Part shown: positions 18,301 to 57,996 of the stretch, in pieces
Layout of the letters: each line of letters opens with the position of its first letter
Position numbering within the stretch: the first letter of the stretch is position 1
NCBI GenBank assembly: GCA_030653545.1
Contig: JAURZE010000022.1
Coordinates: 124,001 to 188,000, forward strand
Length of the DNA stretch: 64,000 nt
Direction: 5' to 3'
From: Nitrospira sp.
GTDB taxonomy: Bacteria > Nitrospirota > Nitrospiria > Nitrospirales > Nitrospiraceae
Position numbers and translations under genes: made by a program
Notes under the pieces: generated by a model
What the model was told of the DNA's origin: nothing
Databases searched by the model: none
What the model saw: only the letters and a program-made list of their open reading frames with translations

Positions 18301-21300
18301 CCACCCCTGGCTGCGGGACTGCCAATGAACAGGCCGGGGGGTTGATACTCCCGCTGGATGAATTCAGGTCGGCGATTGAATGCCTGATGGCACATCCGGA
18401 CTATTCGTCACAGCTGGCTCAGTCAGGTTACGACCATTGGAGGACGTGTTATCGATGGGAATCCTTCCTCGCAGCCTGGGTGGAATTAATTCGAGACGGG
18501 CGACTCACGCACACGTGCGATACCCCCGAACCTATCGCCCGCATGCGTGACGATCTTCGCGCTCGCTACCGAACACTGCGCACGGCAGCGACAGGATCCC
18601 TTCACAGCCAGAGTCCGTCAGGAAGCAAGCCGCGACTGACGAGACCTGTTTCACCTGACGTGAATCGATCAGTTCACACACCAGTCACAACATCACACGA
18701 GGGCTCAATGGACCAAGATCAGTTTTACATCAACATGTTTGTGAAGAGTCCTGGTTGGTCAACATCCGAACCGAATGATGATGAAGCCGCACGCTGGTCA
18801 AAAATCGCCGGATTCCTCGAACATATCCTCCGGAGGGTACAGGCCAATAATCCTGATGCCATGCTCCGCATCCTTGAAGTCGGAAGCGGCCGCGGATGGT
18901 TGAGCAATTTGGCCTCCCAATATGGGACAGTGGAAGGCGTTGAACCGGTCGCAGGCGTCGTAGCCCACGCCCGAAAGATGTTTCCGCACATTCGTTTCGA
19001 AGCCGGCACGGCAGAAGCCGTGCTGAGCCGCCCGGACTTCACCCCCTATGATGTGGTGCTGTGCTCAGAAGTCATTGAGCACGTACCGGACCCTGAGAAA
19101 CCGGCTTTTCTGGACGAGTTGAAGCAGCTTCTGACTTCCGACGGATACCTCATTCTGACCACGCCACGAGGAGAAATGTGGGAACAGTGGCAACGCATTG
19201 CACCCCCCTGCCAGCCAATCGAAGATTGGATCACTGAAGAACGGCTCACTCAGCATATGACGGCTCAGGGCTTCACGCCCTTGGGTCTCGAACGGATTTA
19301 CGTTGAGATACCGACTCTCCGATACATTCCCGCGCCCACTCCGCATAACCTCAAGACCATGAATTTGCTTCCCATTTATCAGGTGTGGATAGCACAGAGA
19401 ACGATCAGTTCACCGGGTCAGGCGCGTCCAATGATCAATAAGCCGCCGATGGTGAGCGTCATCATTCCGACACACAATCGTCCTGATCGTCTTCGCACGG
19501 CGATAACGAGCGTACTCAACCAAGACTATCACGACTTTCAGATCGTGGTGGTCAACGACGGGACGACTCCGGTCGAAGACATTGTGTCCGGGTTGAACCG
19601 CGATGGTCGCATCCTCCTTGTGACACATGATCGCAACCGAGGCCTCGCGGCCTCCCGCAACACCGGGTTGCGACAGGCGTCAGGGAAATACGTGTGCTAT
19701 TTGGATGACGACGACCGGTTCCTTCCGCACCATCTGCGGACATTGGTGACTCATCTTGAATCCTCCGGCGACAAGGTCGCCTACACCGATGCATGGCGGG
19801 TGCATGAATCTCTGATCGACAACACGGCGACCGAAATCGGACGAGATCAGCCCTATGCGGCTGATTTCAACCCGCATCAATTATTGATCAACAATTATCT
19901 TCCGGTCTTGTGCCTCATGCATGAGCGGGCCGTCCTTGATGAAGTCGGCGCGTTCGACGAAAGCCTCTTCGTCCATGAAGATTGGGATCTCTGGATCCGG
20001 ATGGCGACTCGATATCCGTTCAAGCACCTTGCCGTCACGACGGCCGAGTTCACGTGGCGTACGGACGGCTCGTCGATGACGAGTCACAGGAAAGATATAT
20101 TCCTGAGAACGATGGAACTCATTTATCGTAAGTACGCGCCCTATGCCGCCAAGTATGCAGGCGTGCGGGAAAATCAGCAGCAGAATCTCGCCAATCTCCG
20201 AAATAAGCAACTTCGCAAATCATTTGTCTGTTCCATCATCATTCCGGTCTGGAACAAGCTCGAGCTCACCCGTCAATGTCTCGTCGCACTCGGTCCAGCC
20301 ACTGAAGATGTGTCATTCGAACTCATCGTCGTTGATAACCATTCGACCGATGGCACGCCTGAATTTCTCGCATCGCTGGGTGGCGATGTCCGGATCATCA
20401 CGAACGACGAGAACCTGGGATTTGCCAAGGCCTGCAACCAAGGAGCTGCCGTTGCAACGGGCGAGTATCTCGTGTTTTTGAACAACGATACGATTCCACT
20501 CAAAGGTTGGCTGAGCGCGTTGGTCGATGAAGTCCGAACACAGCCCGACGTCACCGTCGTCGGCAGTAAACTGCTGTATCAGGACGGCACAATACAACAT
20601 GCCGGGGTCGCGATCGACCGCAATAACCTCACTCCCTACCATATATATAATGGATTCGCAGCCGATCATCCGGCCGTCAATAAACGGCGCGAACTGAACG
20701 CCGTGACAGCCGCCTGTCTCCTGATTCGCCGCACGGCGTTCGCAGATCTCGGTGGGTTTGATGAAGGCTACCTCAACGGTTTTGAAGATGTCGATCTCTG
20801 CCTGAGAGTACGGGAGAAACAGGGCCGCATTATCTACCAGCCTCACAGCGTGTTGTATCACCTGGAAAGTCAAACGCCAGGCCGTAAACAACACGACCAG
20901 TCGAATGCGAATCGCTTGCACCAGCGTTGGGGGCATTGCTGGTGGCTGGTGGATGACGATTGCATCTACGCGGGAGACGGCTACAAGGCCGTTGAGGAGG
21001 ATCAGAATGGAAGACCGTCGTATAAGCTCCATCTGATCGACGGCACAGAAGAGCGACAGGCGTGGGACCTCGTCGCGTCCATGCAACAGGCGGCACATCA
21101 TCAGGACTTGGCAACAGTCGAGTCTGTCTTGCGGCGGCATGCGGAGTGGCCGGCCGACGCGTCCATTCTGCAATGGGCCGCGTCCGTTGCGACGGCCATG
21201 AAACTCCCGGGCATTGCGGAGGAGTATCGACGCCGGGTTGCCAGCCTGAATGATCCGGCACTTCGCGAGCTGGAGGCCATTCGCGCCGCACTCACCGCCG

Positions 21301-21842
21301 GTCAATTGTCGATGGCGTCGAGCCGCGTCGACGCGTTACTGAAGCAATATCCCACCCATGCGGAGGCGCTCCTTCTTCGAGCCATCCTCCATATGCAGCG
21401 GGAACAATACCGCGAAGCTGAAATTGCCTTTACCACGGCGCTCAATCAGGGTGCGAACCGGAAGAAATGCCTCATGGGAATCGGCATGGCGTCGATGGGC
21501 CGCGCCTATCCGCAGGGAGCCTGGCAAACCTTTCTACGGGTTCTTGCGGAGAACCCCGATGACGCCGATGTGATTCATTGGCTACTGCGTGCGGGGACCG
21601 CGCAAAATCGCTGGCGGGAGCTCAGCGTCCAGCTACACAACTTCCTCGCGCGGAACCCCAGCGATCTGTCGGTCCGCTTCGCCTACGCCGGCGTCTTATT
21701 GCGTGACGATCAGGTGGACGCGGCGCGTCAGGAATACAATCAGTTGCGCGCGTTGGCTCCCACGTATGAAGGATTGGTTGAACTCGGGCAGGCCATCGCC
21801 GCCAAAGAGAGCGTGTTGGCGCTGAACGTGTCCAACGCCTAG
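15309..21842 (+). CDS. giant multidomain glycosyltransferase/methyltransferase/TPR protein (2177 aa)
   Basis: One uninterrupted frame encodes, in order: a CgeB-like GT-B domain (about 1-370, with CFGGRVYEAMAAGRPV); a GT-A-like domain (about 405-640, VDEDMV near 465); a GT4 domain (about 700-1070, PYFWPSVGGVE and the E-x7-E motif near 978); a SAM methyltransferase (about 1134-1370, LEVGSGRGW near 1189); a GT2 domain (about 1380-1620, DDDD near 1465); a second GT2 domain (about 1637-1880, NNDT near 1725); and TPR-like helices (about 1980-2177). Linkers between the early domains are Pro/Ser/Thr-rich. The start is ATG 15309 or 15315, with only a weak ribosome site. The 252-bp gap before it shows no clear site. 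A role in building a methylated flagellin glycan is inferred from the flagellin gene 5.4 kb downstream. Confidence 0.85.
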   Translation: MSMKALLLQLEFPTWKTARPWTYGASFAVAEGLAANGVTCLTVPVLPDTTAASPDSWLSHARRILAGQRFDQVWIWLVHASLDTRILEWAAELAPVRIGFFMESLRYEEEDYRWAPGLRSRHVAFHRQLEHLTHALMVDERDVAELTALGTKPALWCPGLVPRRFIADPSRAPRYNRAVFHGNVYGDRAKWIEHPLLRDRMTFAQAPAQYTSNQQKFDELQKIASERVRHLPMVTAVDLERYVRALHTVREAEFRDWLFGLADWAGIVNLPGLTRCFGGRVYEAMAAGRPVISWRIPDRPRVNALFEDNREILLFSPDDPAELAHQIDRILQDTPFAQAIGIQGQRKLLAHHTAERRMKDILQWLESGKEPEYGNLPTLAEQPTGVKSVTPVNSSSAPRPQGPHPISTTVFLLTVGDPTFQACQESVEQQTGATFKIETIQDVCPFSAAAQEMIVRCTTPYFIQVDEDMVLHPDAVGRMEQAMTQAPAEVGMICFHLYDEDRECPIQGIKIYRTELMKRLAFRDLKASEMNLLDQMGEQGIRWILHPDALGRHGTRYTPETIYRRYKTMYEKDIRQWNLLTADIHRKAHKFRETGDILQLFALLGAAHGIIDAPMAPDREKDARAYHFKELEIFGRLLKTTPPVSQSYDFSRAAVPLKNPPIPLDQVQWKSAPVPPHTDASRSASEQPTPSLAPTPKHPTPQPGHILIVTPYFWPSVGGVETVAEDLGAGLLTAGFHVEVACYEQPDRRMDSHRGISITQLAPHDQMTNGIPTAANQVKHLVESNRYDACILLGSPMNALFYAILELQDLKNRRILFQPTINREGYAFIQQRPIVQSLLERLAKQTTAIIVLGHDTFDARFCGETGIPATIIPNGTPTLNPAFDFRLKYQIDEQQFLIVHVANLYRIKNHLSLLKTLDTLPTGATLVMIGHPTHETAYVAEVQRALSTRPDVLYIPGLHRDGVAAAIQAANLVVLSSEAEVSPLCLLEAMSLQRPWLATPGCGTANEQAGGLILPLDEFRSAIECLMAHPDYSSQLAQSGYDHWRTCYRWESFLAAWVELIRDGRLTHTCDTPEPIARMRDDLRARYRTLRTAATGSLHSQSPSGSKPRLTRPVSPDVNRSVHTPVTTSHEGSMDQDQFYINMFVKSPGWSTSEPNDDEAARWSKIAGFLEHILRRVQANNPDAMLRILEVGSGRGWLSNLASQYGTVEGVEPVAGVVAHARKMFPHIRFEAGTAEAVLSRPDFTPYDVVLCSEVIEHVPDPEKPAFLDELKQLLTSDGYLILTTPRGEMWEQWQRIAPPCQPIEDWITEERLTQHMTAQGFTPLGLERIYVEIPTLRYIPAPTPHNLKTMNLLPIYQVWIAQRTISSPGQARPMINKPPMVSVIIPTHNRPDRLRTAITSVLNQDYHDFQIVVVNDGTTPVEDIVSGLNRDGRILLVTHDRNRGLAASRNTGLRQASGKYVCYLDDDDRFLPHHLRTLVTHLESSGDKVAYTDAWRVHESLIDNTATEIGRDQPYAADFNPHQLLINNYLPVLCLMHERAVLDEVGAFDESLFVHEDWDLWIRMATRYPFKHLAVTTAEFTWRTDGSSMTSHRKDIFLRTMELIYRKYAPYAAKYAGVRENQQQNLANLRNKQLRKSFVCSIIIPVWNKLELTRQCLVALGPATEDVSFELIVVDNHSTDGTPEFLASLGGDVRIITNDENLGFAKACNQGAAVATGEYLVFLNNDTIPLKGWLSALVDEVRTQPDVTVVGSKLLYQDGTIQHAGVAIDRNNLTPYHIYNGFAADHPAVNKRRELNAVTAACLLIRRTAFADLGGFDEGYLNGFEDVDLCLRVREKQGRIIYQPHSVLYHLESQTPGRKQHDQSNANRLHQRWGHCWWLVDDDCIYAGDGYKAVEEDQNGRPSYKLHLIDGTEERQAWDLVASMQQAAHHQDLATVESVLRRHAEWPADASILQWAASVATAMKLPGIAEEYRRRVASLNDPALRELEAIRAALTAGQLSMASSRVDALLKQYPTHAEALLLRAILHMQREQYREAEIAFTTALNQGANRKKCLMGIGMASMGRAYPQGAWQTFLRVLAENPDDADVIHWLLRAGTAQNRWRELSVQLHNFLARNPSDLSVRFAYAGVLLRDDQVDAARQEYNQLRALAPTYEGLVELGQAIAAKESVLALNVSNA

Positions 21843-30741: not shown

Positions 30742-30942
30742 ATGGGAATCGCCGTCCATCAGATACATAACCTGGTTCGCACCTATCAACGGGCGCTCCA
30801 GCCGGCACAGTCTGAGAACTCCCCCGAACCGACAAGAGGTCAGGCCGACCGCGTCTCCGTGTCAGCCGAAGCTCGTGAGCGCCACGAGCAATTCTCCGCA
30901 CGTCCAGAACATGACCGCGACAACACAAAGAGGTCCAGGTGA
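30742..30942 (+). CDS. small FlgM-associated-like protein
   Basis: The 66-residue protein has an N-terminal helix VHQIHNLVRTYQRAL, a polar linker and the motif DRVSVSAEARERHEQF. Small proteins with such a helix and a D-x-V-x-[IS]-S-x-EAR motif are often encoded near flgM in deep-branching flagellated bacteria (I recall the FlgM-associated DVU0524 type). No flgM itself is seen in the window. A GGGAG site precedes ATG; the stop overlaps the GTG of the next gene. Confidence 0.55.
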   Translation: MGIAVHQIHNLVRTYQRALQPAQSENSPEPTRGQADRVSVSAEARERHEQFSARPEHDRDNTKRSR

Positions 30943-32468
30943 GCACACAACCGCATGACGGTCTTTCGCGCATTCTTCTCGTCGGAACACCGCTCTTCCA
31001 TCGGGATATGCGCTGGACTCAACTCGCGCGGCAGGGCTTTGCATTTACACCCGTGACGAAACGACACTGCACCCTCGACTCCGACAGCACCGCGAACGTC
31101 CAGGCCATCGTGTATCAAGTGGGGGCGCGCGCAACGGATACTTTCGCTTTTCTCGAAGCCGTCGCAACTCGACAGAGTGACCTGTGCGTCATTCTCGTCG
31201 GACGCAATCAGAAACCTGACATGGTCGCGCAGTTTCTCCGCCAAGGCGCCTTCGACTATGTCAATTGGCCCGGGGCCCTCTCGCGCCTGACGGACTCACT
31301 GAACTGCGGGCTACGGAACCGCCAAACCTTCTTGGAAGTCCGCAACCTCTCCGGGGATCTGGCCTCCGCCAATCAATCCCTGGCCCGGGAGCGTGATACC
31401 CTCAAACAATTCAATCAACGCCTGGCCGGACTCAATCAGCTGACGCAAGCGCTGGCGAGATCCCTGAAGCCTGAGGATGTCGTTCAGGCTCTCTTTACCG
31501 GGCTTCCCGCACTGACCGGAGCGGAACTCATCGGCTTAGTCCGAACCAATCCCGAACATGTCTGGACATGGTCGCAAGGCGGCGATCAAGAGCGAGAACG
31601 GACACTCACAACGCAACTCCTCGGACGGCTCGGCCGATCGCCGCAGCGGGTCACGTCAGGAGCGACCACACTGCGCCTGGTCGGCTCGCGTCCCATGCCG
31701 CTGATGAGAGGGGAAGACGCCCTCCTCGCGCACCCGCAGCCTGAGACGCATGCCATGCACGATATTCCCTTGGCCATCGGACCGCACGCCATCGGAGTGC
31801 TCCACGTTCAACGAGCAGGATCCGCCCCCTTCACAGAAGACGAACAGCAGTTGCTGGCCACCATCGGCACGTCCCTTTCGCTCACTTTGCGGAATGCCGA
31901 TGCTCACCAGGATCTCCAAGACATGGCTTTGCGGGATCCGCTGACAGGCGTGTTCAATCGCCGGGCACTTGATGAACCCCTCATGCGTGAGTTGAAGGCT
32001 GGACTTCGCTATGGAGCACCGGCCTGCCTGATGATCCTGGACCTCGATTATTTCAAAACCGTGAACGACCGCTTGGGACACACGGCCGGGGACCTCGTCT
32101 TGCGAGAGCTGGCCTCCTTAATGACGGACACCGTGCGCGACGTCGATACGGTCGGACGATACGGGGGAGAAGAGTTTGCCATTATCCTGCCGCATACCTC
32201 GATCGAGCAGGCGCAACCTTTAGCCGAACGCCTGCGAAATCTCATTGAAACCCATGCGTTCGACGTCGAAGATGGCACCGTTCGACTGACCGCCAGCATC
32301 GGGATTGCCGAGGTGTGCAATCCGGCCATCGCCGCGGTTGAGGATTGGGTGAACGCGGCCGATACGGCACTGTACGACGCGAAAGCACAGGGCCGTAATC
32401 GGGTGGTCGTGCACGCACCGGCTCCATTGGCTCCGGTTCAAGCCGCGACGCTCTGCGTCGCCGCCTAG
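30939..32468 (+). CDS. diguanylate cyclase: REC-like, coiled coil, GAF, GGDEF domains
   Basis: A GTG start overlapping the previous stop (GTGA) gives 509 residues. An N-terminal receiver-like domain (about 10-125) lacks an obvious phosphoacceptor pattern. A coiled coil (about 130-165), a GAF-like domain (about 170-325) and a GGDEF domain follow; the active site is GRYGGEEF. RDVD lies exactly five residues before GGEEF, the allosteric inhibitory I-site, so product feedback is likely. It makes c-di-GMP from GTP and sits beside a PilZ gene, forming a synthesis-readout pair within the flagellar cluster. Confidence 0.9.
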   Translation: MSTQPHDGLSRILLVGTPLFHRDMRWTQLARQGFAFTPVTKRHCTLDSDSTANVQAIVYQVGARATDTFAFLEAVATRQSDLCVILVGRNQKPDMVAQFLRQGAFDYVNWPGALSRLTDSLNCGLRNRQTFLEVRNLSGDLASANQSLARERDTLKQFNQRLAGLNQLTQALARSLKPEDVVQALFTGLPALTGAELIGLVRTNPEHVWTWSQGGDQERERTLTTQLLGRLGRSPQRVTSGATTLRLVGSRPMPLMRGEDALLAHPQPETHAMHDIPLAIGPHAIGVLHVQRAGSAPFTEDEQQLLATIGTSLSLTLRNADAHQDLQDMALRDPLTGVFNRRALDEPLMRELKAGLRYGAPACLMILDLDYFKTVNDRLGHTAGDLVLRELASLMTDTVRDVDTVGRYGGEEFAIILPHTSIEQAQPLAERLRNLIETHAFDVEDGTVRLTASIGIAEVCNPAIAAVEDWVNAADTALYDAKAQGRNRVVVHAPAPLAPVQAATLCVAA

Positions 32469-32471
32469 CGT

Positions 32472-33095
32472 ATGGAAGAAAGAGTCAGGCCCACGATGAA
32501 TCACACACAATCGCTCCGAGACTCTTCCCTCGCCGTCGATGAACGCCGGGAGTGGATTCGTGTCGATGATCACCTCCTGATGGAGTTCCGCCTCACGAGC
32601 GAATCGGCCGACACGCCCCAGCCGGGCACGCCTCCGCTGACCGATGAGATGATTGCCGCCGCCGTCGGAAAGCCGACCGCCGATCTGCTGGCACGCACGG
32701 GCGATACGCTGGCGACGTCGCCGTTCCTCCCGTGGATCATGAAAGTCGATTGGTTGATGGAGGTGCTGCTGCGTGGCATGGCGCATATTCAGCCGGACAG
32801 TATCGCCATCGCGCGACTGACCGAGGTGAATATCAGCGGGGGAGGGATCAGCTTCGTCTCACCGCGCCCGTTCCAACCAGCCGACCTGTTGACGCTGAAA
32901 CTGATTCTTCCCCCCTTCACTCCCGTCAACACGAGCGCCAAGGTCATTCGCACCTCGCCGCTGACCGGGGCGCCCGGCTACCTGATCGCCACGCAATACG
33001 TCGACCTGTCTCCGGATCATCAAGAAGACATCATTCGCCACATCATCCAGACGCAAGCCGAACGGCTGCGGGCCAGACGGAACACCGGAAGCTAG
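32472..33095 (+). CDS. PilZ domain c-di-GMP receptor
   Basis: The 207-residue protein carries RREWIR near residue 24 (containing RxxxR) and, about 95 residues later, NISGGGISF (NxSxxG), both PilZ c-di-GMP motifs. The long spacing means a helical insertion of about 70 residues in the domain. It follows the diguanylate cyclase by 3 bp. An ATG at 32496 is an alternative start; neither has a strong ribosome site. The output target is unknown. Confidence 0.8.
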   Translation: MEERVRPTMNHTQSLRDSSLAVDERREWIRVDDHLLMEFRLTSESADTPQPGTPPLTDEMIAAAVGKPTADLLARTGDTLATSPFLPWIMKVDWLMEVLLRGMAHIQPDSIAIARLTEVNISGGGISFVSPRPFQPADLLTLKLILPPFTPVNTSAKVIRTSPLTGAPGYLIATQYVDLSPDHQEDIIRHIIQTQAERLRARRNTGS

Positions 33096-36613: not shown

Positions 36614-38494
36614 ATGGACGATGAAACGCAGGAAATACTCAACGACTTTCTGACCGAAACGACGGAGATGATCGACGGACTCGATCAGAAATTCGTCGAG
36701 CTCGAAGCGCAGCCGGAGAATAAAGATCTTCTCAACGAGATCTTCCGGGCCATGCACAGCATGAAGGGCTCGGCCGGCTTTCTAGGCTTCACTCATCTCG
36801 TCGATGTCACCCATCGGGCCGAAAGTATTCTGAATAAACTCCGGCAGGGGGAGATGGCCGTCGTTCCGGAAATCATCACGGTGATTCTTGAAACCGTCGA
36901 TACCGTCAAGCTCATCATGACCGAGATTCGGACGTCCGGGACCGACGTGAAGATTCCCGTCGAGACGATGTCCCAGAAACTCGACGACATTCTCGCAGGG
37001 AAGTTCAGCGAGGCGGCGGCCGCTCCGAAGCCTCCGGTCGCTCCGGCACCGGCGGCCGCCCAGCCCCAGGAACCTCCGCAACCGGCCGCGCCGCCGCCCC
37101 AGTTGGGAGAAATTCTCGTCACCGAAGGTCTGGCGACCAAAGAGCAGGTGTTCGATGCCCTGACGGAGCAATCCAAACAGCCGGATCCCAAACAGCCGCT
37201 CGGAGAATTGCTTATCCAAGCGAAAGCGATCTCCGAGAAAGCGCTCGATCAGGCGTTGCAGAAGCAAGAGAAGCATCCCAAGGCCGAAGAGGATGCCACG
37301 ATCCGCGTGGAAACGAAACGGCTCGACTCCGTCATGAATCTCGTCGGTGAATTGGTCCTCGGAAGAAATCGCCTGATCAAAATCGGCGGGATACTGGAAC
37401 AGACACACGAAACGGATCCTCAGGTCCGGGCGCTCAGCGAAACACTCACCCAGCTGAATCTGGTGACGACAGACCTGCAACTTGCCGTCATGAAGACCCG
37501 CATGCTGCCGATCAAGAAAGTCATGGCCAAGCTGCCCCGCATGGTCCGGGACCTGTCGTCGAAACTCGGCAAGCAGGTGCGGCTGGAGACGCACGGAGAA
37601 GAGACCGAACTCGATAAGTCCGTGGCCGATGAAATCGGCGATCCGCTGGTCCACCTCGTGCGGAATGCCATCGACCACGGCATCGAAATGCCGACCGAAC
37701 GGCATGCCGCCAGAAAACCCAGCGAGGGCGTCTTGCGTATTGCCGCAAGTCAGGAGGGCAACAGCATCGTCATTCGCATCCAGGACGACGGAAAAGGCAT
37801 CGCGCTCAGCAAGATTAAAGCCAAGGCCTTGCAGAAGGGACTCATCAGCGAGGCGGAGCTGGCGACCATGGAACCACGGGAAGTCGTCAACTTGATCTTC
37901 CTGCCGGGCTTCAGCACGGCTGAGAAAGTCACGGATGTCTCCGGTCGCGGCGTCGGCATGGATGTCGTCCGAACCAATATCCGCAAGATGAACGGCACCG
38001 TCGAAATCGAGTCTGAAGAAGGCAAGGGGAGCCTCATCACGATCAAGCTGCCGCTGACCATCGCCATTATTCAAGCCTTGATGGTGGAAGTCGAACGGGC
38101 GACGTTTGCCATTCCCCTCAGCTCCGTCATCGAAGCCGTCCGGATTTCCAAGGATGAGATCAAGACCATCAACGGACGGGAAGTGTTGCATTTACGGGAT
38201 CGCGTGCTGCCGCTGCTCCGGCTGGCCAAGGAGTTTGACATTCCCACAGACACGGATCGGGACCGCTTCTACGTGGTGGTCGCCGCGCTCGGGGATCGGC
38301 GCATCGGCGTCGTCGTCGATGAATTGCGGTCGCAGGAAGAAGTCGTCATTAAATCCATTTGGGAGTACTTGGACAGCATCAAAGGTATTTCCGGCGCCAC
38401 GATCACCGGCGAAGGAAAGGTCGTCCTCATCCTGGATATTTCAGAACTCGTGGAAAACGCGCAAGCCTGGCATGCCTCCGCCATGGTGGCCTAG
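36614..38494 (+). CDS. cheA: chemotaxis histidine kinase CheA (first copy) with MshEN-like repeats
   Basis: 626 residues: Hpt/P1 with phospho-accepting His48 (AMHSMKGSAGF); a Pro/Ala linker (about 135-162); two 24-residue repeats at about 163-218 starting QLGEILVTEG and PLGELLIQAK, which fit the MshEN pattern; P3 dimerisation helices; P4 ATPase (VRNAIDHGIE N box, DDGKGI, GRGVGMDVV); and a C-terminal CheW-like P5. A normal CheY-binding P2 domain is not evident. CheA phosphorylates CheY and CheB in response to receptors. A GGAGGG site precedes ATG. Confidence 0.95.
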   Translation: MDDETQEILNDFLTETTEMIDGLDQKFVELEAQPENKDLLNEIFRAMHSMKGSAGFLGFTHLVDVTHRAESILNKLRQGEMAVVPEIITVILETVDTVKLIMTEIRTSGTDVKIPVETMSQKLDDILAGKFSEAAAAPKPPVAPAPAAAQPQEPPQPAAPPPQLGEILVTEGLATKEQVFDALTEQSKQPDPKQPLGELLIQAKAISEKALDQALQKQEKHPKAEEDATIRVETKRLDSVMNLVGELVLGRNRLIKIGGILEQTHETDPQVRALSETLTQLNLVTTDLQLAVMKTRMLPIKKVMAKLPRMVRDLSSKLGKQVRLETHGEETELDKSVADEIGDPLVHLVRNAIDHGIEMPTERHAARKPSEGVLRIAASQEGNSIVIRIQDDGKGIALSKIKAKALQKGLISEAELATMEPREVVNLIFLPGFSTAEKVTDVSGRGVGMDVVRTNIRKMNGTVEIESEEGKGSLITIKLPLTIAIIQALMVEVERATFAIPLSSVIEAVRISKDEIKTINGREVLHLRDRVLPLLRLAKEFDIPTDTDRDRFYVVVAALGDRRIGVVVDELRSQEEVVIKSIWEYLDSIKGISGATITGEGKVVLILDISELVENAQAWHASAMVA

Positions 38495-47134: not shown

Positions 47135-49285
47135 ATGACCACCGATCTCTCCCAATTTCAGGACGCCTTCTTTGAAGAGTCGTCGGAACACCTCACCACA
47201 ATCGAGGACGGATTGCTGCAACTCGAACAGCGTCCGGACGATCTCGATCTCCTGAACAGGATCTTCCGGGCCGCCCATTCCATCAAAGGGAACAGCGGGA
47301 TGTTCGGCTTCACCGCCGTGGGTCAGTTCACCCATAAGATGGAAACGCTCCTGGATCAACTGCGGAACGGCAAATTTTCCGTGACCCCCGAGATCACCGA
47401 CATCCTCTTGCGGTCGACCGACCAGCTCAAGATTCTGATCGAAGCCGCCAGAGGCGGAGCGGCACCCGATACGGACCTCTTGCTGCAACTGGAACGGGAA
47501 CTCGCCGCAGCGGCTGAAGGCGAAGAGACTCCTGGGAATACGTCCTCCGCACCCGCCTCTGCATCGTCCGCTACACCGGCCGCTGCATCCTCCACGCCTA
47601 ACCTTCATCGTTTTCGCATCAGGTGGGCCGCGCCTGCCTGGTTGTTCCAACGAGGGCTCGATCCGGTTCGGATGATCGGCGAACTTGAAGACCTGGGCAC
47701 AATCGTCTCGCGCCGGCTGGATACCAGCAGGTTTCCTGCAATCGATTCCCTGGACCCGGAGTGCTGCTATCTGAGCTGGACGCTGGAACTCGAGACAGCC
47801 AAAGAACAGGCAGTTGTCGAAGGGGTCTTTGACTTCGTTCGGGATGAAGGCGAATTGACCATTGAAGATTGTGCCCCCGCCATTCCACCCGTGGTCGCCT
47901 CCGATGACAGCGAACCTAAACCGTTGGGCGAGATCCTGATCGAAAGCGGTGTGGTCTCACGCGAAACACTGGACAAAGCGCTGTCTCAACAAAAGCGGCT
48001 CGGAGAGATTCTGGTCGAGCAACACGCGGCCACGCCCCAACAGATTTCCCAGGCTCTGCAGAAACAGGGCGATACCGCCACCCAGGCGAAGAAAGGCGGC
48101 GACGCCGCCTCGATTCGCGTGGATACCGGCAAGATCGACAAGCTGATCAATCTGGTCGGAGAACTGGTCATCACCCAATCAATGTTGAGCTCGCTGGGCA
48201 CCCGCTTCGACATGAGCCAGCTGCCTGTCCTGGTCGAACGGGTCGCCCAGCTGGAACGCAATACCCGAGAAATCCAAGAGCGGGTCATGGGCATTCGCAT
48301 GCTTCCCATCGGCAGTACCTTCAGCCGCTTCCCCCGACTGGTGCGCGATCTCTCCGGCAATGCCGGGAAGAAGATCCAGCTCCTCCTCTCGGGCGAAGAG
48401 ACCGAACTCGATAAAACCGTCATCGAATCGATCGGCGATCCGCTCACGCACCTGGTCCGAAACTCCGCCGACCATGGGCTGGAGCCACCGGAAGAACGCC
48501 TCGCCGCCGGCAAGCCGGAACTGGGTACGATCCGCATGAACGCCTTTCATGAAGGGGGCAGCATCTGCATCACGGTCGAAGACGACGGGCGCGGGCTGAA
48601 CCGGGACAAGATCCTGGCCAAGGCCATCAAGCAAGGCCTGATCGCAGACGGGGAGAAGCTCTCCGACGATCAGATCAACGGACTGATTTTCCGTCCGGGC
48701 TTTTCCACCGCCGACAAGATCACCGACGTCTCCGGACGCGGCGTCGGCATGGATGTCGTGAAAAAGAATATCGAAGCCCTCGGCGGAACCGTCAGCATCA
48801 AGACCGCGCTGGGCAAAGGCACGACGTTTACCCTCAAGCTCCCGCTGACCCTGGCTATCATCGAAGGGATGACCGTGCGGGTCGGACGGGAAAGTTACAT
48901 TATCCCGCTGGTCTCGATCCTGGAATCGATTCAACCGACGGCGGCGTCCGTCAAGACTATTACCGGTAAGGGCGAAGTGGTGGAAGTGCGCGGCTCGTAC
49001 CATCCGATTGTGCGCCTCTCCGAGGCCTTTTCCATCGACGCGGATTGCCAGGATCCGACCAAGGCGATCCTGGTCATGCTCGAAACCGAGCAGGAGCGCG
49101 TGGCGGTCATGGTGGATGAGCTGTTGGGACAACAGCAGGTGGTCATCAAGAGTCTTGAAAAGAACTTCAGAAAAGTCGAGGGCATCGCTGGCGCGACGAT
49201 TCTCGGCGATGGAACGGTCAGCTTCATTCTCGATGTGCGGGGCTTAATCGAACTCAGCCGTCACGGGCTTTCCGTCGCGGCCTAA
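47135..49285 (+). CDS. cheA: chemotaxis histidine kinase CheA (second copy) with MshEN-like repeats
   Basis: 716 residues: Hpt with His48 (RAAHSIKGNSGMFGF); an Ala/Ser linker; a small alpha/beta domain (about 155-250) common after Hpt in large CheAs; two adjacent 24-residue repeats at about 263-311 beginning PLGEILIESG and RLGEILVEQH; then P3, P4 (VRNSADHGLE, DDGRGL, GRGVGMDVV) and CheW-like P5. It differs from the first CheA in length and in the extra domain. The gene leads cheW and a tethered MCP. Array C occupies the leader, so no good ribosome site is seen. Confidence 0.95.
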   Translation: MTTDLSQFQDAFFEESSEHLTTIEDGLLQLEQRPDDLDLLNRIFRAAHSIKGNSGMFGFTAVGQFTHKMETLLDQLRNGKFSVTPEITDILLRSTDQLKILIEAARGGAAPDTDLLLQLERELAAAAEGEETPGNTSSAPASASSATPAAASSTPNLHRFRIRWAAPAWLFQRGLDPVRMIGELEDLGTIVSRRLDTSRFPAIDSLDPECCYLSWTLELETAKEQAVVEGVFDFVRDEGELTIEDCAPAIPPVVASDDSEPKPLGEILIESGVVSRETLDKALSQQKRLGEILVEQHAATPQQISQALQKQGDTATQAKKGGDAASIRVDTGKIDKLINLVGELVITQSMLSSLGTRFDMSQLPVLVERVAQLERNTREIQERVMGIRMLPIGSTFSRFPRLVRDLSGNAGKKIQLLLSGEETELDKTVIESIGDPLTHLVRNSADHGLEPPEERLAAGKPELGTIRMNAFHEGGSICITVEDDGRGLNRDKILAKAIKQGLIADGEKLSDDQINGLIFRPGFSTADKITDVSGRGVGMDVVKKNIEALGGTVSIKTALGKGTTFTLKLPLTLAIIEGMTVRVGRESYIIPLVSILESIQPTAASVKTITGKGEVVEVRGSYHPIVRLSEAFSIDADCQDPTKAILVMLETEQERVAVMVDELLGQQQVVIKSLEKNFRKVEGIAGATILGDGTVSFILDVRGLIELSRHGLSVAA

Positions 49286-52280: not shown

Positions 52281-53099
52281 ATGGATTACCCGATCAGCAA
52301 ACAGGAATACGACCGGATCCGCACGCTACTCTACGACGAAAGCGGGATCTCGCTCGGGGATAATAAGCAATCCCTCGTCGTCTCCCGCCTGTCCAAACGG
52401 CTGCGCGAGCTGGAGATCGACAGCTTCGCGGCCTACTACGACCAGGTGACGCAGGACGACAGCGGCGGCGAATTCACCCGGATGCTGGATCTGCTCTCAA
52501 CCAACAAGACCGATTTCTTTCGCGAGCCCAAACACTTCGACTATCTCAGGGAGCAGATCCTGCCGACGCTGGAGCGAGAGAAACGGATTCGGATCTGGTC
52601 CTCGGCCTGTTCAACCGGAGAAGAACCCTACACCATTGCGATCACCCTCCACGAAGCCATCACATCGCCGGCTCAGTGGGATATGGGGATTCTGGCCTCC
52701 GACATCTCGACGCGAGTTCTGGCCCACGCCGCCGCAGGACTGTATGGCGAGGAGCGAATCACGACCGTCTCGCCGGACATCGCACGAAGGCACTTCTTGA
52801 AGGGCCGGGGCAAGAGCGCCGGCCTGGTCAAAGTGAAGCCGCACCTCTCCAAGCTCATCACCTTCCGCCGGCTCAATCTGATGAGCGACACGTTCCCTAT
52901 TCGGTCACCGTTGGATCTAATATTTTGCCGCAATGTGATGATTTATTTCGACCGCCCGACGCAAGAGCGGCTCATTGCCAAGTTCCACCGCTACTTAAAG
53001 CCGGGCGGCCACCTGTTCATCGGACATTCTGAGAGCCTCCAGTGGATCAAGCATGACTTTTCGACCATCGCCCCCACGATTTATCGGAAGGGGACCTAG
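52281..53099 (+). CDS. cheR: chemotaxis protein methyltransferase CheR (second copy)
   Basis: 272 residues with CheR N-terminal helices and methyltransferase domain: TNKTDFFREPKHF, IRIWSSACSTGEEPYTIAI, FCRNVMIYFDRPTQ, GHSESL. Together with cheD and cheB it forms the adaptation set of the second cluster. One of the MCPs (49886) has a tether that could bind it. Confidence 0.95.
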   Translation: MDYPISKQEYDRIRTLLYDESGISLGDNKQSLVVSRLSKRLRELEIDSFAAYYDQVTQDDSGGEFTRMLDLLSTNKTDFFREPKHFDYLREQILPTLEREKRIRIWSSACSTGEEPYTIAITLHEAITSPAQWDMGILASDISTRVLAHAAAGLYGEERITTVSPDIARRHFLKGRGKSAGLVKVKPHLSKLITFRRLNLMSDTFPIRSPLDLIFCRNVMIYFDRPTQERLIAKFHRYLKPGGHLFIGHSESLQWIKHDFSTIAPTIYRKGT

Positions 53100-53104
53100 C
53101 CGGA

Positions 53105-53719
53105 ATGCCTACCCTGGACACTGAGCATTTTAGTCATATCCGGCGCATGACGGATCGGCGCTTTCCTCATGAAATCGCCTCGATCCTGCCCGGAGAATTC
53201 TTTGTCAGCTGCGAACCGATGGTGGTCTATACCGTGCTCGGCTCCTGCATCTCGGCCTGCATTCGCGATCCCATCTCCGGAGTAGGAGGCATGAATCACT
53301 TCATGCTGCCCAAACCCAACGAGCATCAGTCCAGTGATGCCTGGGGCGGGGAGTCCACCCGGTATGGCTCGTTTGCGATGGAGCAATTGATCAACGGCAT
53401 TCTCAAGCGCGGCGGCATGAAGCACCGCCTCGAGGTGAAGCTGTTCGGAGCGGGACGGATTTACGAAGGGAACATCGACGTCGGTGCGCGGAACATCGAA
53501 TGGGTTCTGCACTACCTGAAGAATGAAGGGTTTGGGATCGCCAAGAGCGATCTGGGCGATGTGTTTCCAAGAAAGGTCTACTACTTCACGGAGTCCGGCC
53601 GTGTATTGATGAAGAAGATTGAACGGATCAAAAACACGACCATCATCGACCGCGAGGCGGAATACTCCCGCCATCTCAAGCTAGAGGAACAAGTGCAGAG
53701 CGATATCACATTGTTCTGA
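53105..53719 (+). CDS. cheD: chemoreceptor glutamine deamidase CheD
   Basis: 204 residues with the CheD Cys-His pair: Cys48 in VLGSCISACI and His65 in GGMNHFMLP, plus KLFGAGRI and NIEWVLHYL. CheD deamidates receptor glutamines and may interact with phosphatases. It is longer than minimal CheDs (about 160) because of N- and C-terminal tails. Spaced 5 bp after cheR and 9 bp before cheB. Confidence 0.93.
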   Translation: MPTLDTEHFSHIRRMTDRRFPHEIASILPGEFFVSCEPMVVYTVLGSCISACIRDPISGVGGMNHFMLPKPNEHQSSDAWGGESTRYGSFAMEQLINGILKRGGMKHRLEVKLFGAGRIYEGNIDVGARNIEWVLHYLKNEGFGIAKSDLGDVFPRKVYYFTESGRVLMKKIERIKNTTIIDREAEYSRHLKLEEQVQSDITLF

Positions 53720-53728
53720 GAGGTACTC

Positions 53729-54784
53729 ATGGCCAAGATACGCGTCCTGAATGTCGATGATTCCGCGCTGATGCGCCAGGTCCTCGCCCAGCTGTTGTCC
53801 AAAGATCCCGGGATTGAGGTGATCGGTTCAGCCCCGGATCCTTACATCGCGCGCGAAAAGATCAAGGCGCTGAATCCCGATGTCATCACCTTAGACGTCG
53901 AAATGCCCAAGATGGACGGGCTCACCTTCTTGGAGAAATTGATGCGGGGCCGGCCCATGCCGGTGGTGATGGTGAGCTCGCTGACAGAAGCCGGATGCCA
54001 GACAACCCTGCGGGCTCTGGAGCTCGGCGCAGTCGACTATATCACCAAACCTAAGATCGATCTTCGCAACGGCATGGAAGGGATTGCCGACGATTTGATC
54101 GAGAAGGTAAAAGCCGCCGCTATCGCCAAGATACGCGGAGTCGCGAACGGGTCCGGTCACGGGCAGCCGCGGCAGGCAACGCCGCTCTCCTCGGCGATGA
54201 TCAAAACGACCGATACCATTATTGCGATCGGCTCCTCAACCGGCGGAACGGAAGCGGTCAAAGAGGTCCTGGAAGTGCTTCCCCCCAATACGCCTCCCAT
54301 TCTGATCACCCAGCACATGCCTGAACACTTCACGAAGACCTGGGCCGACCGGATGAACCAGATTTGCCGGATCTCGGTCAAAGAAGCGCAGGATGGGGAT
54401 AGCGTACTCCCGGGCCATGCCCTGATCGCCCCGGGCAGTTATCACATGACGCTGGTGCGCAACGGCGCCCGCTATTCCGTGCGCATCAATCAAGACCCGC
54501 CGGTCAATCGGCACCGGCCTTCCGTGGATGTGATGTTCGACTCTGTCGCGCGGTATGCCGGCGGCAACGCCGTCGGGGTCATCCTGACCGGGATGGGCGG
54601 AGACGGCGCCAAAGGCATGCTCACGATGAAAGAGGCCGGCGCCTATACCATCGCGCAGGATGAAGCGAGTTGTGTGGTCTTTGGAATGCCCAAGGAAGCC
54701 ATCAAGTTAGGCGGTGTCGACAAGATCCTCCCCCTGGGAGACATCGCCAGTGCCGTGCTGACTCATGTATCTCACCATTCTTAA
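53729..54784 (+). CDS. cheB: chemotaxis methylesterase/deamidase CheB (second copy)
   Basis: 351 residues: receiver with Asp56 (ITLDVEMPKMDGL), linker, and esterase with GSSTGGTEA, ITQHMPEHF and GMGGDGAKGM. It diverges from the first CheB throughout. AGAGGTACTC precedes the ATG. Confidence 0.95.
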   Translation: MAKIRVLNVDDSALMRQVLAQLLSKDPGIEVIGSAPDPYIAREKIKALNPDVITLDVEMPKMDGLTFLEKLMRGRPMPVVMVSSLTEAGCQTTLRALELGAVDYITKPKIDLRNGMEGIADDLIEKVKAAAIAKIRGVANGSGHGQPRQATPLSSAMIKTTDTIIAIGSSTGGTEAVKEVLEVLPPNTPPILITQHMPEHFTKTWADRMNQICRISVKEAQDGDSVLPGHALIAPGSYHMTLVRNGARYSVRINQDPPVNRHRPSVDVMFDSVARYAGGNAVGVILTGMGGDGAKGMLTMKEAGAYTIAQDEASCVVFGMPKEAIKLGGVDKILPLGDIASAVLTHVSHHS

Positions 54785-54800: not shown

Positions 54801-55133
54801 ATGCAGATCACGCATCGTTCCTATCGCAATGCCGATGTCCTCGACATCACCGGGCAGTTCAATTTCGGAACCCGGAAGGATTTCTCTGCCGCAATCGAAA
54901 AGGTGAAAACGTGCGCGCATGTCATTCTGAATTTCAAAAGCGTTACTTTTGTCGACAGTGCCGCGATCGGACTGCTCGCGCTGGCTGCACAGCAATTCAA
55001 AAGCTCTAACCGGAGCTTGTCCTTGGTCGGCGCTCAAGGAACAGTGAAACAAGTGTTGAACCTGGCTCATATCGAGCAAATGATTCCAACCTTTGCGAGT
55101 GAAGACGCCGCGCTGAGCAAAAAAGCCGCCTAA
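54801..55133 (+). CDS. STAS domain anti-sigma factor antagonist (first of tandem pair)
   Basis: ATG 54801, after GGAGG, gives 110 residues. STAS fold with the phosphorylatable Ser in VTFVDSAAIGLLAL. It is a likely substrate of the HATPase kinase encoded 2.3 kb downstream and of the PP2C phosphatase between them. Partner-switch antagonists bind an anti-sigma or other kinase-like protein when unphosphorylated. Confidence 0.87.
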   Translation: MQITHRSYRNADVLDITGQFNFGTRKDFSAAIEKVKTCAHVILNFKSVTFVDSAAIGLLALAAQQFKSSNRSLSLVGAQGTVKQVLNLAHIEQMIPTFASEDAALSKKAA

Positions 55134-55183
55134 GCGCAAAGGCCGATTGTTGCGACCCGACCAATCAGATTGAAAGGATAACC

Positions 55184-55531
55184 ATGATGCAGATTAAAGA
55201 ACGACCGATTCCCAACGCCGTGATCCTCGACCTGAACGGAGATCTGACCTACGCCCATCGTGACGTGTTCAAAGCTGCCGTTGAAACATTGCGCCAAAAA
55301 GGCTGCCGCCATGTCATTCTGAATATGGCCGACGTGCGGTTCGTCGACAGCTCGGGCCTGGGCCTGCTGGCGCTGGTCTCTCAGAATTTCAAGCTGAATC
55401 AGGGCAAGGTCAGCATGCTCAGACCCCAGAGCTATGTGCGGGAAATTCTGGGACTGGCCAATATCCCGAAGCTGATTCCGGTGTTTGATAACGAACAGGA
55501 TGCGGTGAACGGGAAAGCCCAAGCCGCATAG
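55184..55531 (+). CDS. STAS domain anti-sigma factor antagonist (second of tandem pair)
   Basis: 115 residues; canonical SpoIIAA-like site VRFVDSSGLGLLAL. Related to the preceding STAS protein but clearly diverged, so this is an old duplication. Start may be 55184 or the adjacent ATG at 55187; AAAGGA precedes both. Confidence 0.88.
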   Translation: MMQIKERPIPNAVILDLNGDLTYAHRDVFKAAVETLRQKGCRHVILNMADVRFVDSSGLGLLALVSQNFKLNQGKVSMLRPQSYVREILGLANIPKLIPVFDNEQDAVNGKAQAA

Positions 55532-55544
55532 CGATAGGGACATT

Positions 55545-56744
55545 ATGAGTGTTGACACCCTTTCGAAAGCGGCTGTCCCCCCCGCTACCGCCACGGTGCT
55601 CCTGGTGGATGACGAGCCAGTGAGCCGTTTGAGTATGGCCGCGCGGCTGAAGCGGATGGGACTTCGTGTCCTCGAAGCCGGCAATGGCAAGGAGGGACTC
55701 GCCATTCTGCGGCGCGAACGTCCCGATCTGACGATCCTGGACTGGATCATGCCGGAAATGGACGGCCCCACGGTTTGCGAGCAGGTTCGGCAAGACCCGG
55801 ACATCCTGTCCAGTCAGCTCATTCTGATGACCTCCCACGACCAACCGGAACAAATCGCCGAGGGTTTGGCGCGGGGGGCCGACGATTTTCTGAGCAAAGC
55901 TGCCAGCAAGCAGGAAGTGCTCGCCCGTGTGCAATCCGGCCTGCGTGCGGCCTCGCTGGTCCGGAGCATCGAAAGCACGCGAGATGAACTCCGCGCCAAG
56001 CAAGGGGAGTTGGAAGCCGAACTCAAGTCGGCTGCCGGCTACATCCAATCCTTGCTTCCCGTCGCCGGAGAGCTCACCAGGGACATCCGCATGTCCTGGA
56101 GCTATCGCCCGTCGCAGGCGCTCGGCGGCGATCTGTTCAATGTGTCGCACTGGGATGACCAGTCGGTCTACTTCTATATCCTGGATGCCTCCGGGCATGG
56201 CGTGGCGCCCGCGTTGCGCGCGGCATCGCTCTCGACGTTTCTCCGTGCCGACAATCTTCGGCACTATATGAGTTCCAGTGATCCGGCTCGCATGATGACG
56301 GAAGCCAATCGGCAATACCCGCTGACTGAAGACGGCAACTACTTCACCCTCTGGCTCGGATCCTTTGATCGGCGCACCAGCCAGCTGCGCTATACCACAG
56401 CCGGTCACGGGGGGGCGCTTCTTCAACGGCGGAGCGGGACGGTGGAATGGCTGACGCATACTCAGCTTCCGCTAGGTTTTGAATCGGACACCACCTACGA
56501 GCTCACGACCGTCCAGATTGCCGACGGGGATCGCCTCCTGCTCATGAGCGACGGGATCTACGAAGCCCCTGCGCCTACGGGAGAACTCTGGGGGACCACC
56601 CGCTTGGAGACCACCCTCATGGCACATCGAACCGCACCACTCGGAGCGGCGCTTCAGGCGCTCATGGCCGAAGCCGAACGCTGGCATGGCTCTCCGGTCT
56701 TTCCCGACGACGCGGCCTTACTCGGATTGGAGTTCAGACTATGA
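55545..56744 (+). CDS. response regulator with PP2C-type (RsbU/SpoIIE) phosphatase domain
   Basis: 399 residues: receiver domain (about 15-130; phosphoacceptor in LTILDWIMPEMDG), a coiled-coil linker (about 140-170) and an SpoIIE/RsbU-type PP2C phosphatase (LGGDLFNV, LDASGHGVAPAL, SDGIYEA, DDAALLGL) with the metal-binding Asp residues present. It should dephosphorylate one or both STAS proteins when its receiver is phosphorylated, possibly by a CheA or through the Hpt protein encoded next. The stop overlaps the Hpt start (ATGA). Confidence 0.9.
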   Translation: MSVDTLSKAAVPPATATVLLVDDEPVSRLSMAARLKRMGLRVLEAGNGKEGLAILRRERPDLTILDWIMPEMDGPTVCEQVRQDPDILSSQLILMTSHDQPEQIAEGLARGADDFLSKAASKQEVLARVQSGLRAASLVRSIESTRDELRAKQGELEAELKSAAGYIQSLLPVAGELTRDIRMSWSYRPSQALGGDLFNVSHWDDQSVYFYILDASGHGVAPALRAASLSTFLRADNLRHYMSSSDPARMMTEANRQYPLTEDGNYFTLWLGSFDRRTSQLRYTTAGHGGALLQRRSGTVEWLTHTQLPLGFESDTTYELTTVQIADGDRLLLMSDGIYEAPAPTGELWGTTRLETTLMAHRTAPLGAALQALMAEAERWHGSPVFPDDAALLGLEFRL

Positions 56745-57100
56745 GCACCGACGTTGTGTTTAATCTTGCCGAAGCGCTCACGCGGGTCGATGAGGACGAA
56801 GAGCTCTTTCTCACGCTGGCTGAACTGTTCGTCGAACAGGCCCCCTTGGACATGGCCGCCGCCCAGGCCGCGCTCGATGCCGGCGATGCCGAGGCCCTGG
56901 CCCGCGCCGCGCACCGGATGAAAGGCGCCATTTTGCAATTCTCCGCTCCCCGTGTGTTCGAGGCGACCAAAGAGCTGGAAGCCCTCGGGAAAGCCGGCAC
57001 CTTGGACCGCGCCGCGACGGTGTGCGCCCACGTCGATCGGGAACTCCAACAACTCATTGCGGCGCTGCGCGCATACGTCGCAAACGGATCTGCATCATGA
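56741..57100 (+). CDS. histidine phosphotransfer (Hpt) domain protein
   Basis: 119 residues; single Hpt domain with the phospho-His at 58 in AAHRMKGAILQFSA. Its ATG lies in the stop of the phosphatase gene and its stop holds the ATG of the next gene, so the three are translationally linked. It could shuttle phosphate between the two receivers on either side. Confidence 0.88.
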   Translation: MSTDVVFNLAEALTRVDEDEELFLTLAELFVEQAPLDMAAAQAALDAGDAEALARAAHRMKGAILQFSAPRVFEATKELEALGKAGTLDRAATVCAHVDRELQQLIAALRAYVANGSAS

Positions 57101-57996
57101 CGACTCCCGTCCCGTCCTGCACGGTCCTGGTGGTCGATCCCTGCCGGGAGACGCAAGCGCAGATCCTGGGCCATATGCAAGATCGGGGGTTTTCCGTGAT
57201 CACGGCGTCCGACCCGAGCACGGCGCTCGCGACCATCGAGCTCACGGCCCCGGATATCGTGTTGACCGATTCGTTCCTCCCGGAAGGCGCCGGCCTGACC
57301 CTGACCAAAACGCTTCGAGCGCGACAGGTCCCGTGCCCGGTCATCGTGATGGCCGAGCATCAATCCGAGCAGGCGGTCATCCATGCGCTGCGCGCCGGAG
57401 CCGTGGATTTTCTGCAGAAGCCGATCGGCGTGGAAGAGCTGGCGCATGCGTTGCAACGCGCGCGCTATCTGCTTCCGGCCGATATGGCGGATACACCAGG
57501 CCTGGTGCGCTCCGACTACGCCCTGACCGTCGATTCAGACCCGCGGCATATCCCCGGGATTGTGTCCTGGCTGATCAGAGCCACGGCCGGGGCCTTGTCC
57601 GATACCACACAGCTCCATCTCCGAGGCACGCTGCAAGAGTTGCTGCTCAACGCCGTCGAGCACGGCAATCTGGAGATTTCCTACCAGGTCAAGCAACAGG
57701 CCATCGATCAGAATCGGCTGAGCCAACTCGTGCAGGAACGTCTGGCTCAACCGCGCCTGGCCCAACGCACCGTCACGATCCATGTGCATTGCGACCGTCA
57801 GGCCGGACAGCTGGAATATCGGATTGCCGATCAGGGGAAAGGGTTTCAATGGAAAACCTTGCTGCATCGGGCCACGACACCCTGCAACGCCGAAGATGCC
57901 AGCGGACGGGGGATCTTCCTGGCTCGTTCGTTCTTTCCCAATCTCCGTTACAACGATCGCGGAAATGAAGTGACGGTGCAGATCCCTATCGACTGA
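57097..57996 (+). CDS. receiver plus RsbW-like HATPase (anti-sigma/serine kinase type) protein
   Basis: Start at ATG 57097 (ATGA overlap) gives 299 residues. The receiver (about 8-125) has Asp in VLTDSFLPEG and Lys in LQKPIG, but only one Asp (VVDP) at the usual acidic pair. The C-terminal domain has a HATPase N box QELLLNAVEHGN, a DQGKGF G1 box and GRGIFLARSF G2 box, like RsbW/SpoIIAB kinases. It should phosphorylate STAS serines; it could equally bind a sigma factor not encoded here. Confidence 0.87.
   Translation: MTTPVPSCTVLVVDPCRETQAQILGHMQDRGFSVITASDPSTALATIELTAPDIVLTDSFLPEGAGLTLTKTLRARQVPCPVIVMAEHQSEQAVIHALRAGAVDFLQKPIGVEELAHALQRARYLLPADMADTPGLVRSDYALTVDSDPRHIPGIVSWLIRATAGALSDTTQLHLRGTLQELLLNAVEHGNLEISYQVKQQAIDQNRLSQLVQERLAQPRLAQRTVTIHVHCDRQAGQLEYRIADQGKGFQWKTLLHRATTPCNAEDASGRGIFLARSFFPNLRYNDRGNEVTVQIPID

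Follow-up and report, generated by a model that had tools for sequence, protein, structure and literature searches.

A 64,000-nucleotide stretch of Nitrospira sp. DNA (assembly GCA_030653545.1, contig JAURZE010000022.1, positions 124,001 to 188,000 of the forward strand; hereafter the window) encodes, at window positions 54801–57996, a five-gene module that forms the last part of a chemotaxis cluster. The module combines a predicted phosphatase and a predicted kinase, each carrying a receiver domain, with two STAS proteins and a stand-alone histidine phosphotransfer (Hpt) protein. The two receivers differ: the active site is kept almost without exception in the phosphatase and is degenerate in nearly all kinase orthologs. 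The parts, their order and conservation, the receiver asymmetry and an association with flagellar genes can all be read from the sequences, and we consider it probable that the module is a partner switch, associated with chemotaxis and motility, in which a phosphorelay controls one arm only. The genes are as follows.

54801–55133, + strand: STAS1, lineage-variable, with a candidate phosphorylatable serine in the motif VDSAAIG (PF01740, 9.7e-16)
55184–55531, + strand: STAS2, the core STAS protein, motif VDSSGLG (PF01740, 2.5e-18)
55545–56744, + strand: REC-PP2C, an RsbU/SpoIIE-type phosphatase with a canonical receiver (PF07228 SpoIIE, 5.5e-38; PF00072 Response_reg, 1.8e-25)
56741–57100, + strand: stand-alone Hpt, with a candidate phosphorylatable histidine in AHRMKGA (PF01627, 3.1e-13)
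57097–57996, + strand: REC-HATPase, an RsbW-like kinase with a pseudo-receiver (PF13581 HATPase_c_2, 4.6e-14; PF00072, 4.7e-21)

Open reading frames and Pfam matches for every domain place the five genes in this order directly after cheR, cheD and cheB, in agreement with the original prediction, and the last three overlap as ATGA, as it had also stated, at 56741 (phosphatase/Hpt) and 57097 (Hpt/kinase). The STAS2–phosphatase junction is a 13-base gap. The longest frame of STAS1 begins at 54765, within cheB, and the ATG at 54801 was taken as the start; STAS1 and STAS2 share 45% identity. The predicted complete set of RsbU/RsbV/RsbW-type parts plus an Hpt is likewise borne out at the sequence level, with a STAS protein bearing a candidate serine, an RsbU-type PP2C and an RsbW-type HATPase encoded together, as expected of a putative partner switch.

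Relatives were collected by scanning 84,980 species, one genome each, which gave 147 candidates, of which the best 80 were kept; 30 of the loci (L012–L041) are close relatives, and 20 further loci (L107–L126) from 20 genomes of the family were picked by us to cover other genera. A Nitrospira metagenome-assembled genome encodes a kinase with 97% identity to that of the window. The order STAS2–phosphatase–Hpt–kinase is kept in 29 of the 30 close loci, counting L032, whose STAS2 is cut by the contig start; the remaining locus, L040, begins inside the phosphatase gene at a contig end. The module is thus not a chance arrangement. CheB lies directly upstream in 27/30 (L032 and L040 are cut by contig ends), and in L015, where the kinase is 86% identical, the module follows a DUF420 gene with no CheR, CheD or CheB in between. 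STAS1 is an optional member: among the 28 close loci with a readable CheB–STAS2 stretch it is present in 13, including L029 and L030 where it is a separate matching frame, and absent from 15, in which the CheB–STAS2 gap is at most 249 bases. STAS, phosphatase, Hpt and kinase genes are consecutive in 15 of the 20 further loci (L107–L121). Two others, L122 and L123 of genus g14, have an extra receiver gene between Hpt and kinase (L122:5036-6022 and L123:2299-2907), which may be a partial duplicate of the kinase gene; the extra gene of L122 encodes a receiver and an Hpt in a single open frame. In L124 and L125 the locus also includes a gene for a hybrid histidine kinase, and L126 is cut by a contig end.

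The residues on which partner switching would depend are well conserved. In the kinase, HATPase residues N185, E188, H189, G190, D245, G247, G249, G270, R271 and G272 are invariant among 46 aligned sequences; L126 (G055:C16), which lies outside that alignment, deviates at two HATPase motifs (VHGN and GLGI). The G055 genome has no FliG, FlgM or FlhA match and contains two more partial kinase matches. STAS2 has DSSG in 30/30 alignment rows, and a D-S motif occurs in at least one STAS protein of 18 of 19 further loci, L122 being missed by a crude string search. The Asp motifs of the phosphatase are kept wherever they are readable. The Hpt histidine is present in all 50 stand-alone Hpt sequences read (31/31 alignment rows and 19/19 further loci, the fused Hpt of L125 being excluded).

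Receivers were scored on five residues (two acids, the phospho-acceptor Asp, the Thr/Ser and the Lys) in a profile alignment anchored on the window CheY; the profile was built from eight phosphatase receivers, CheY and two CheB receivers and so leans to the phosphatase side. The kinase receiver is canonical in 1 of the 51 aligned orthologs (L125, genome G113) and fails in the other 50. The phosphatase receiver, aligned in 50 of the 51 loci with L040 left out, is canonical in 49, the exception being L126, cut by the contig end. Among 50 distant REC-HATPases, 44 could be aligned (L043, a fragment, L075, L089 and three Kiloniella proteins could not) and 39 are canonical; L079, L053, L057, L061 and L086 fail, L086 being scored so for a gap at the first acid. 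Fisher tests of the receiver contrasts give p values of 1e-26 and 6e-20, uncorrected for phylogeny. The window kinase receiver reads D-P-D-A-K, with Pro at the second acid and Ala at the switch Thr/Ser; an independent alignment of the Nitrospira set is in accord on the receiver residues. At the second acid the window genus and g11 mostly have Pro or Ser, while g14 has Ala in place of the first acid and Gln in place of the Lys, so that different residues have been lost in different genera. Both acids are always acidic in true receivers, the second binding the metal directly, and a pseudo-receiver is a domain recognised as a receiver that lacks key active-site residues (Bourret and colleagues, PMC12632262). 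The receiver domain of the kinase is recognised by PF00072 at 4.7e-21 yet reads D-P/D/A/K and, judged by these residues, is a pseudo-receiver: the fold is kept and the chemistry probably lost. The phosphatase receiver is also unusually well conserved, unlike that of the kinase. Over 49 loci (excluding L040 and L126), mean pairwise identity in the phosphatase is 0.72 for the receiver vs 0.55 for the catalytic domain, and in the kinase 0.49 for the receiver vs 0.56 for the HATPase. One database alignment to the kinase, with 50 rows, covers the receiver half only and is uninformative on the HATPase half.

A quick maximum-likelihood tree, from a rapid search that raised long-branch warnings, places all 51 orthologs on one side of a branch (Shimodaira–Hasegawa-like approximate likelihood ratio test, SH-aLRT, 95); if it is rooted among the distant relatives, L125 is the sister group of the remaining 50 (SH-aLRT 97). 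Because the canonical L125 is sister to the rest, the simplest reading of these sequences is that the active site was lost after the L125 split. Three Kiloniella REC-HATPases (L064, L065 and L083) have, by eye, E-P at the acidic pair in 3/3 genomes; their genes adjoin PP2C and STAS genes, and cheB-cheD-cheR on the opposite strand, and in the tree they are well separated from the Nitrospira clade. The che-linked kinase of this one genus seems to have lost the same metal-binding residue independently.

The AlphaFold model of the kinase has a mean pLDDT (predicted local distance difference test score) of 86.2 and a pTM (predicted template modelling score) of 0.74. The best solved match is LvrC of Leptospira (PDB code 9qih; profile E-value 1.3e-40; Foldseek rank 1, E-value 1.1e-18), and the alignment with it shows an intact LvrC receiver site. 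The whole-chain TM-score is 0.46–0.49 with a root-mean-square deviation of 12–13, indicating that the individual domains match and that their arrangement does not superpose.

The proposed circuit is a prediction as regards its enzyme activities, the direction of phosphate flow, the effect on the phosphatase and the target. The HATPase would phosphorylate the serine of STAS2 (and of STAS1), and the PP2C domain would remove the phosphate. A hybrid histidine kinase encoded elsewhere in the genome would hand phosphate from its receiver to Hpt, with CheA as an alternative direct donor. The phosphate would arrive at the canonical receiver of REC-PP2C and alter phosphatase activity. Since the kinase receiver is a pseudo-receiver, the kinase arm would be constitutive or controlled by binding, the balance would be set on the phosphatase side, and the phosphorylation state of the STAS proteins would select their partner and carry the output. 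By analogy with HsbA of Pseudomonas aeruginosa, the likeliest class of target would be motility or lifestyle control, through FlgM/FliA or a diguanylate cyclase. Other genes of the window that bear on input and output are listed below.

53729–54784, + strand: CheB, immediately 5' of the module (PF01339, 8.7e-68)
53105–53719, + strand: CheD (PF03975, 6.8e-26)
52281–53099, + strand: CheR (PF01739, 5.3e-63)
47135–49285, + strand: CheA of the adjoining cluster, a possible phosphate donor (Pfam)
36614–38494: the other CheA of the window (Pfam)
30939–32468, + strand: GGDEF protein, a candidate output (PF00990, 7.5e-46)
32472–33095: PilZ protein, starting three bases after the GGDEF gene (PF07238, 5.6e-10)

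Presence of the module tracks flagellar genes, which makes a motility or lifestyle output plausible. Kinase orthologs (E-value 1e-59 or better) occur in 90 of 120 genomes of the family, the best match in the other 30 being 3e-23. FliG is found in 86/90 genomes with the module vs 8/30 without it (p 1e-13, without phylogenetic correction; two weak FliG matches near 6e-4 were scored absent), and FlgM in 83/90 vs 8/30. The link with FliG holds within genera g1 and g14. One genome with the module, G103, has no FliG or FlgM match and does have FlhA. As for a particular target, the original prediction had stated that no sigma factor or cyclase is nearby. This needs qualifying: the GGDEF and PilZ genes lie about 22 kb upstream of the module, between FliS and the first chemotaxis cluster, and FlgM and FliA are about 65 kb and 72 kb upstream on the same contig, outside the window. 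FlgM/FliA, the genome's RpoS-like sigma factor and the GGDEF protein (30939–32468) are no more than candidates. A conserved downstream target did not emerge; the downstream frames that most relatives share include, by eye, type II secretion-like genes on the opposite strand.

The kinase might itself be an anti-sigma factor in the manner of RsbW or LvrC, holding an RpoS-like sigma factor, FliA or RpoH until an unphosphorylated STAS protein frees it, an idea that is compatible with one-armed control and to which we give perhaps one chance in a handful or slightly better. Its HATPase_c_2 domain, the nearest solved structure, LvrC, itself proposed to be an anti-sigma factor, and the interaction of both HsbR and CrsR with RpoS (PMC6482189) point this way, and the genome holds FliA and an RpoS-like sigma factor (322.5 bits against a cut-off of 378.7). 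Against it, five of the six PF04539 matches in the genome were scanned, and none of these sigma-70-family proteins reaches the TIGR02980 cut-off for the SigB/F/G type. The sixth, outside that scan, reads by eye as RpoD. Nor was any sigma gene recognised beside the module in the relatives.

The source of phosphate bears on a second alternative, that one CheA phosphorylates REC-PP2C directly, with Hpt acting as a sink for phosphate or handling a different input, which we regard as unlikely. Two CheA genes are indeed present in the window, at 36614–38494 and 47135–49285, as the original wording "both CheAs" implied. The position of the module directly 3' of cheB in 27/30 loci favours this arrangement, as does a neighbourhood of the same kind as the che1 locus of Shewanella; for these reasons CheA is, by analogy, still a possible donor. 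Against it stand the Hpt histidine, kept in 50/50 stand-alone Hpt proteins, a genome (G107) that retains the module without a PF02895 match, and the hybrid kinases encoded within the operon in G004 and in G113. In G004 a PAS/GAF hybrid kinase (HisKA-HATPase-REC-REC) is encoded between the phosphatase and Hpt genes, and in G113 a hybrid kinase of the same kind has an Hpt domain fused to its end (25.3 bits against a cut-off of 24.6). These gene arrangements favour a hybrid histidine kinase as the putative phosphate source. Judged by open-frame size, the module Hpt is one of three stand-alone Hpt proteins in the genome.

About equally doubtful is that the pseudo-receiver, rather than being a relic, is a docking or sensing domain that uses the receiver dimer face to pair with the phosphatase receiver or Hpt; one phosphorylation, on the phosphatase, would then turn the kinase off in trans. 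If so, what had been a circuit with two receivers, as in G113, would now take one chemical input and read it out by protein contact, and the che-linked Kiloniella kinase, which also has Pro there, may have followed independently. The weakest proposal is the original one that Hpt passes phosphate to both receivers, so that one arm is activated while the other is inhibited: the Hpt gene does sit between the two receiver-protein genes and overlaps both, and the canonical receivers on both proteins of the sister ortholog G113 suggest that the ancestor may have worked two-armed, but the kinase receiver lacks at least one of the five active-site residues in 50/51 orthologs, with lesions that vary by genus, while the phosphatase receiver passes in 49/50, which makes phosphotransfer to both arms unlikely.

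Several observations weigh against one-armed, motility-linked control as the preferred reading. The kinase receiver of G113 (L125) is canonical, so that this genome may have two-armed control. In the window kinase the receiver retains Asp58, the Lys and one member of the acidic pair, which leaves room for weak or unusual phosphorylation. A che-linked locus from Nitrospirae J017 (L058), of another Nitrospirota lineage, also has a canonical kinase receiver; in it, genes for REC-PP2C, STAS and REC-HATPase lie near genes for a methyl-accepting chemotaxis protein (MCP), CheY, CheA and CheW, and no Hpt was detected. Genus g11 shows no module–FliG association (p 1), with two FliG genomes lacking the module and one module genome lacking FliG, and eight genomes in all have FliG and no module. 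Conversely, G107, G055 and G016 have the kinase and no FliG, FlgM or FlhA match. G107 (L119) is 99% complete and keeps CheR, CheD, CheB and the whole module, with no match to CheA (PF02895), FliG, FlhA or FlgM. These three genomes make it less likely that the circuit is fed strictly by CheA or acts through FlgM alone. Among the genes next to the module, none was recognised as a target. Finally, an RsbW-like HATPase encoded at C6:24740-27979 (L106:3741-6980) could be a second kinase acting on the STAS proteins. It belongs to a Cache-PAS-GAF protein of about 1080 residues with a C-terminal HATPase_c_2 domain (32.5 bits) and no HisKA match; it is 38% identical to the HATPase of the module kinase, and its gene adjoins one for a hybrid kinase with REC-REC-Hpt.

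STAS1 and STAS2 are the only PF01740 matches of the genome, FlgM is present, and we read the genome as holding one putative RsbU-type phosphatase. Two further PF07228 matches (contig C23, 28 bits) were rejected as RsbU phosphatases, being by eye what we take to be Stp1-like PP2C proteins. The module kinase was also considered as the sole RsbW-like HATPase, which was rejected, as PF13581 has 22 matches in the genome, 8 of them above the cut-off; most sit in long frames and were taken, by frame length, as histidine kinases, and the Cache-PAS-GAF protein on C6 carries such a domain too.

The original prediction likened the module to HsbR/HsbA with the parts split differently, and this comparison holds: phosphatase and kinase are on separate proteins. 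In the HptB-HsbR-HsbA system of P. aeruginosa an Hpt likewise feeds a REC-PP2C, which acts on a STAS protein, with a motility/biofilm output (PMC6482189); its stand-alone Hpt with a conserved histidine beside a phosphatase receiver appears to be matched here. HsbR, however, is a single fused REC-PP2C-kinase with one receiver, whereas here the genes at 55545–56744 and 57097–57996 are separate, and the target of HsbA is known in Pseudomonas, where the STAS protein binds FlgM. Judged by gene neighbourhood, CrsR-CrsA of Shewanella oneidensis is a closer relative than HsbR-HsbA, as both it and the Nitrospira module are partner-switch genes inside a chemosensory cluster. The che1 locus comprises ten genes, namely cheA1, Y1, W1, R1, D1, B1, two MCP genes, crsR and crsA (PMC9855816); these ten include no Hpt and no second STAS gene, whereas the Nitrospira module has an Hpt and a kinase with its own pseudo-receiver. 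CrsR unites kinase/anti-sigma and phosphatase domains (PMC6482189), which the Nitrospira module splits. Because phosphatase and kinase are separate proteins, the module is neither HsbR- nor CrsR-type in the strict sense.

The domain order of the module kinase, a receiver followed by an RsbW-like HATPase, is that of TciR of Vogesella and LvrC of Leptospira. The TciR paper lists Nitrospira among the taxa having TciR-like proteins, and its authors describe Vogesella as being without an RsbV homolog (PMC12826045). The LvrC receiver is phosphorylated by LvrB (PMC13269768); it is canonical, whereas the receiver of the module kinase is degenerate and its gene is grouped with PP2C, STAS and Hpt genes. 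With RsbU-RsbV-RsbW of Bacillus the module has a phosphatase, a STAS protein and an RsbW-like kinase in common, but the input to the phosphatase is a receiver here and RsbT in Bacillus (PMC12143880), and the classical Rsb/SpoII systems have a SigB/F/G sigma factor, of a type not found among the five scanned here. No description of the Nitrospira module was found in the titles and abstracts of the literature searched, which covered few subscription journals, and a split layout with a kinase pseudo-receiver and a strictly kept phosphatase receiver was not found in that literature either.

The orthologs form a natural series from a canonical kinase receiver (G113) to variously degenerate ones, with the receiver of the partner phosphatase intact in the same operon. 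A 2025 review calls the mechanisms that activate and inactivate bacterial pseudo-receivers still a mystery (PMC12632262). The TciR authors say that they knew of no earlier functional characterisation of a REC-RsbW protein (PMC12826045); that of LvrC came in 2026 (PMC13269768). The module also suggests how Nitrospira chemotaxis genes may connect to a lifestyle decision.

Around the module, the intergenic gaps are short: 5 bases for cheR–cheD, 9 for cheD–cheB and 16 for cheB–STAS1. The window also encodes, besides its two CheA proteins, MCPs, CheW, MotA/MotB and flagellar proteins. Scans for promoter-like sites (1 vs a shuffle mean of 2.4) and terminator-like sites (7 vs 5.6) returned about as many as shuffled sequence. 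Farther upstream, an open frame of 2177 codons occupies 15309–21842, near genes for B12-binding radical SAM and glycosyltransferase proteins.

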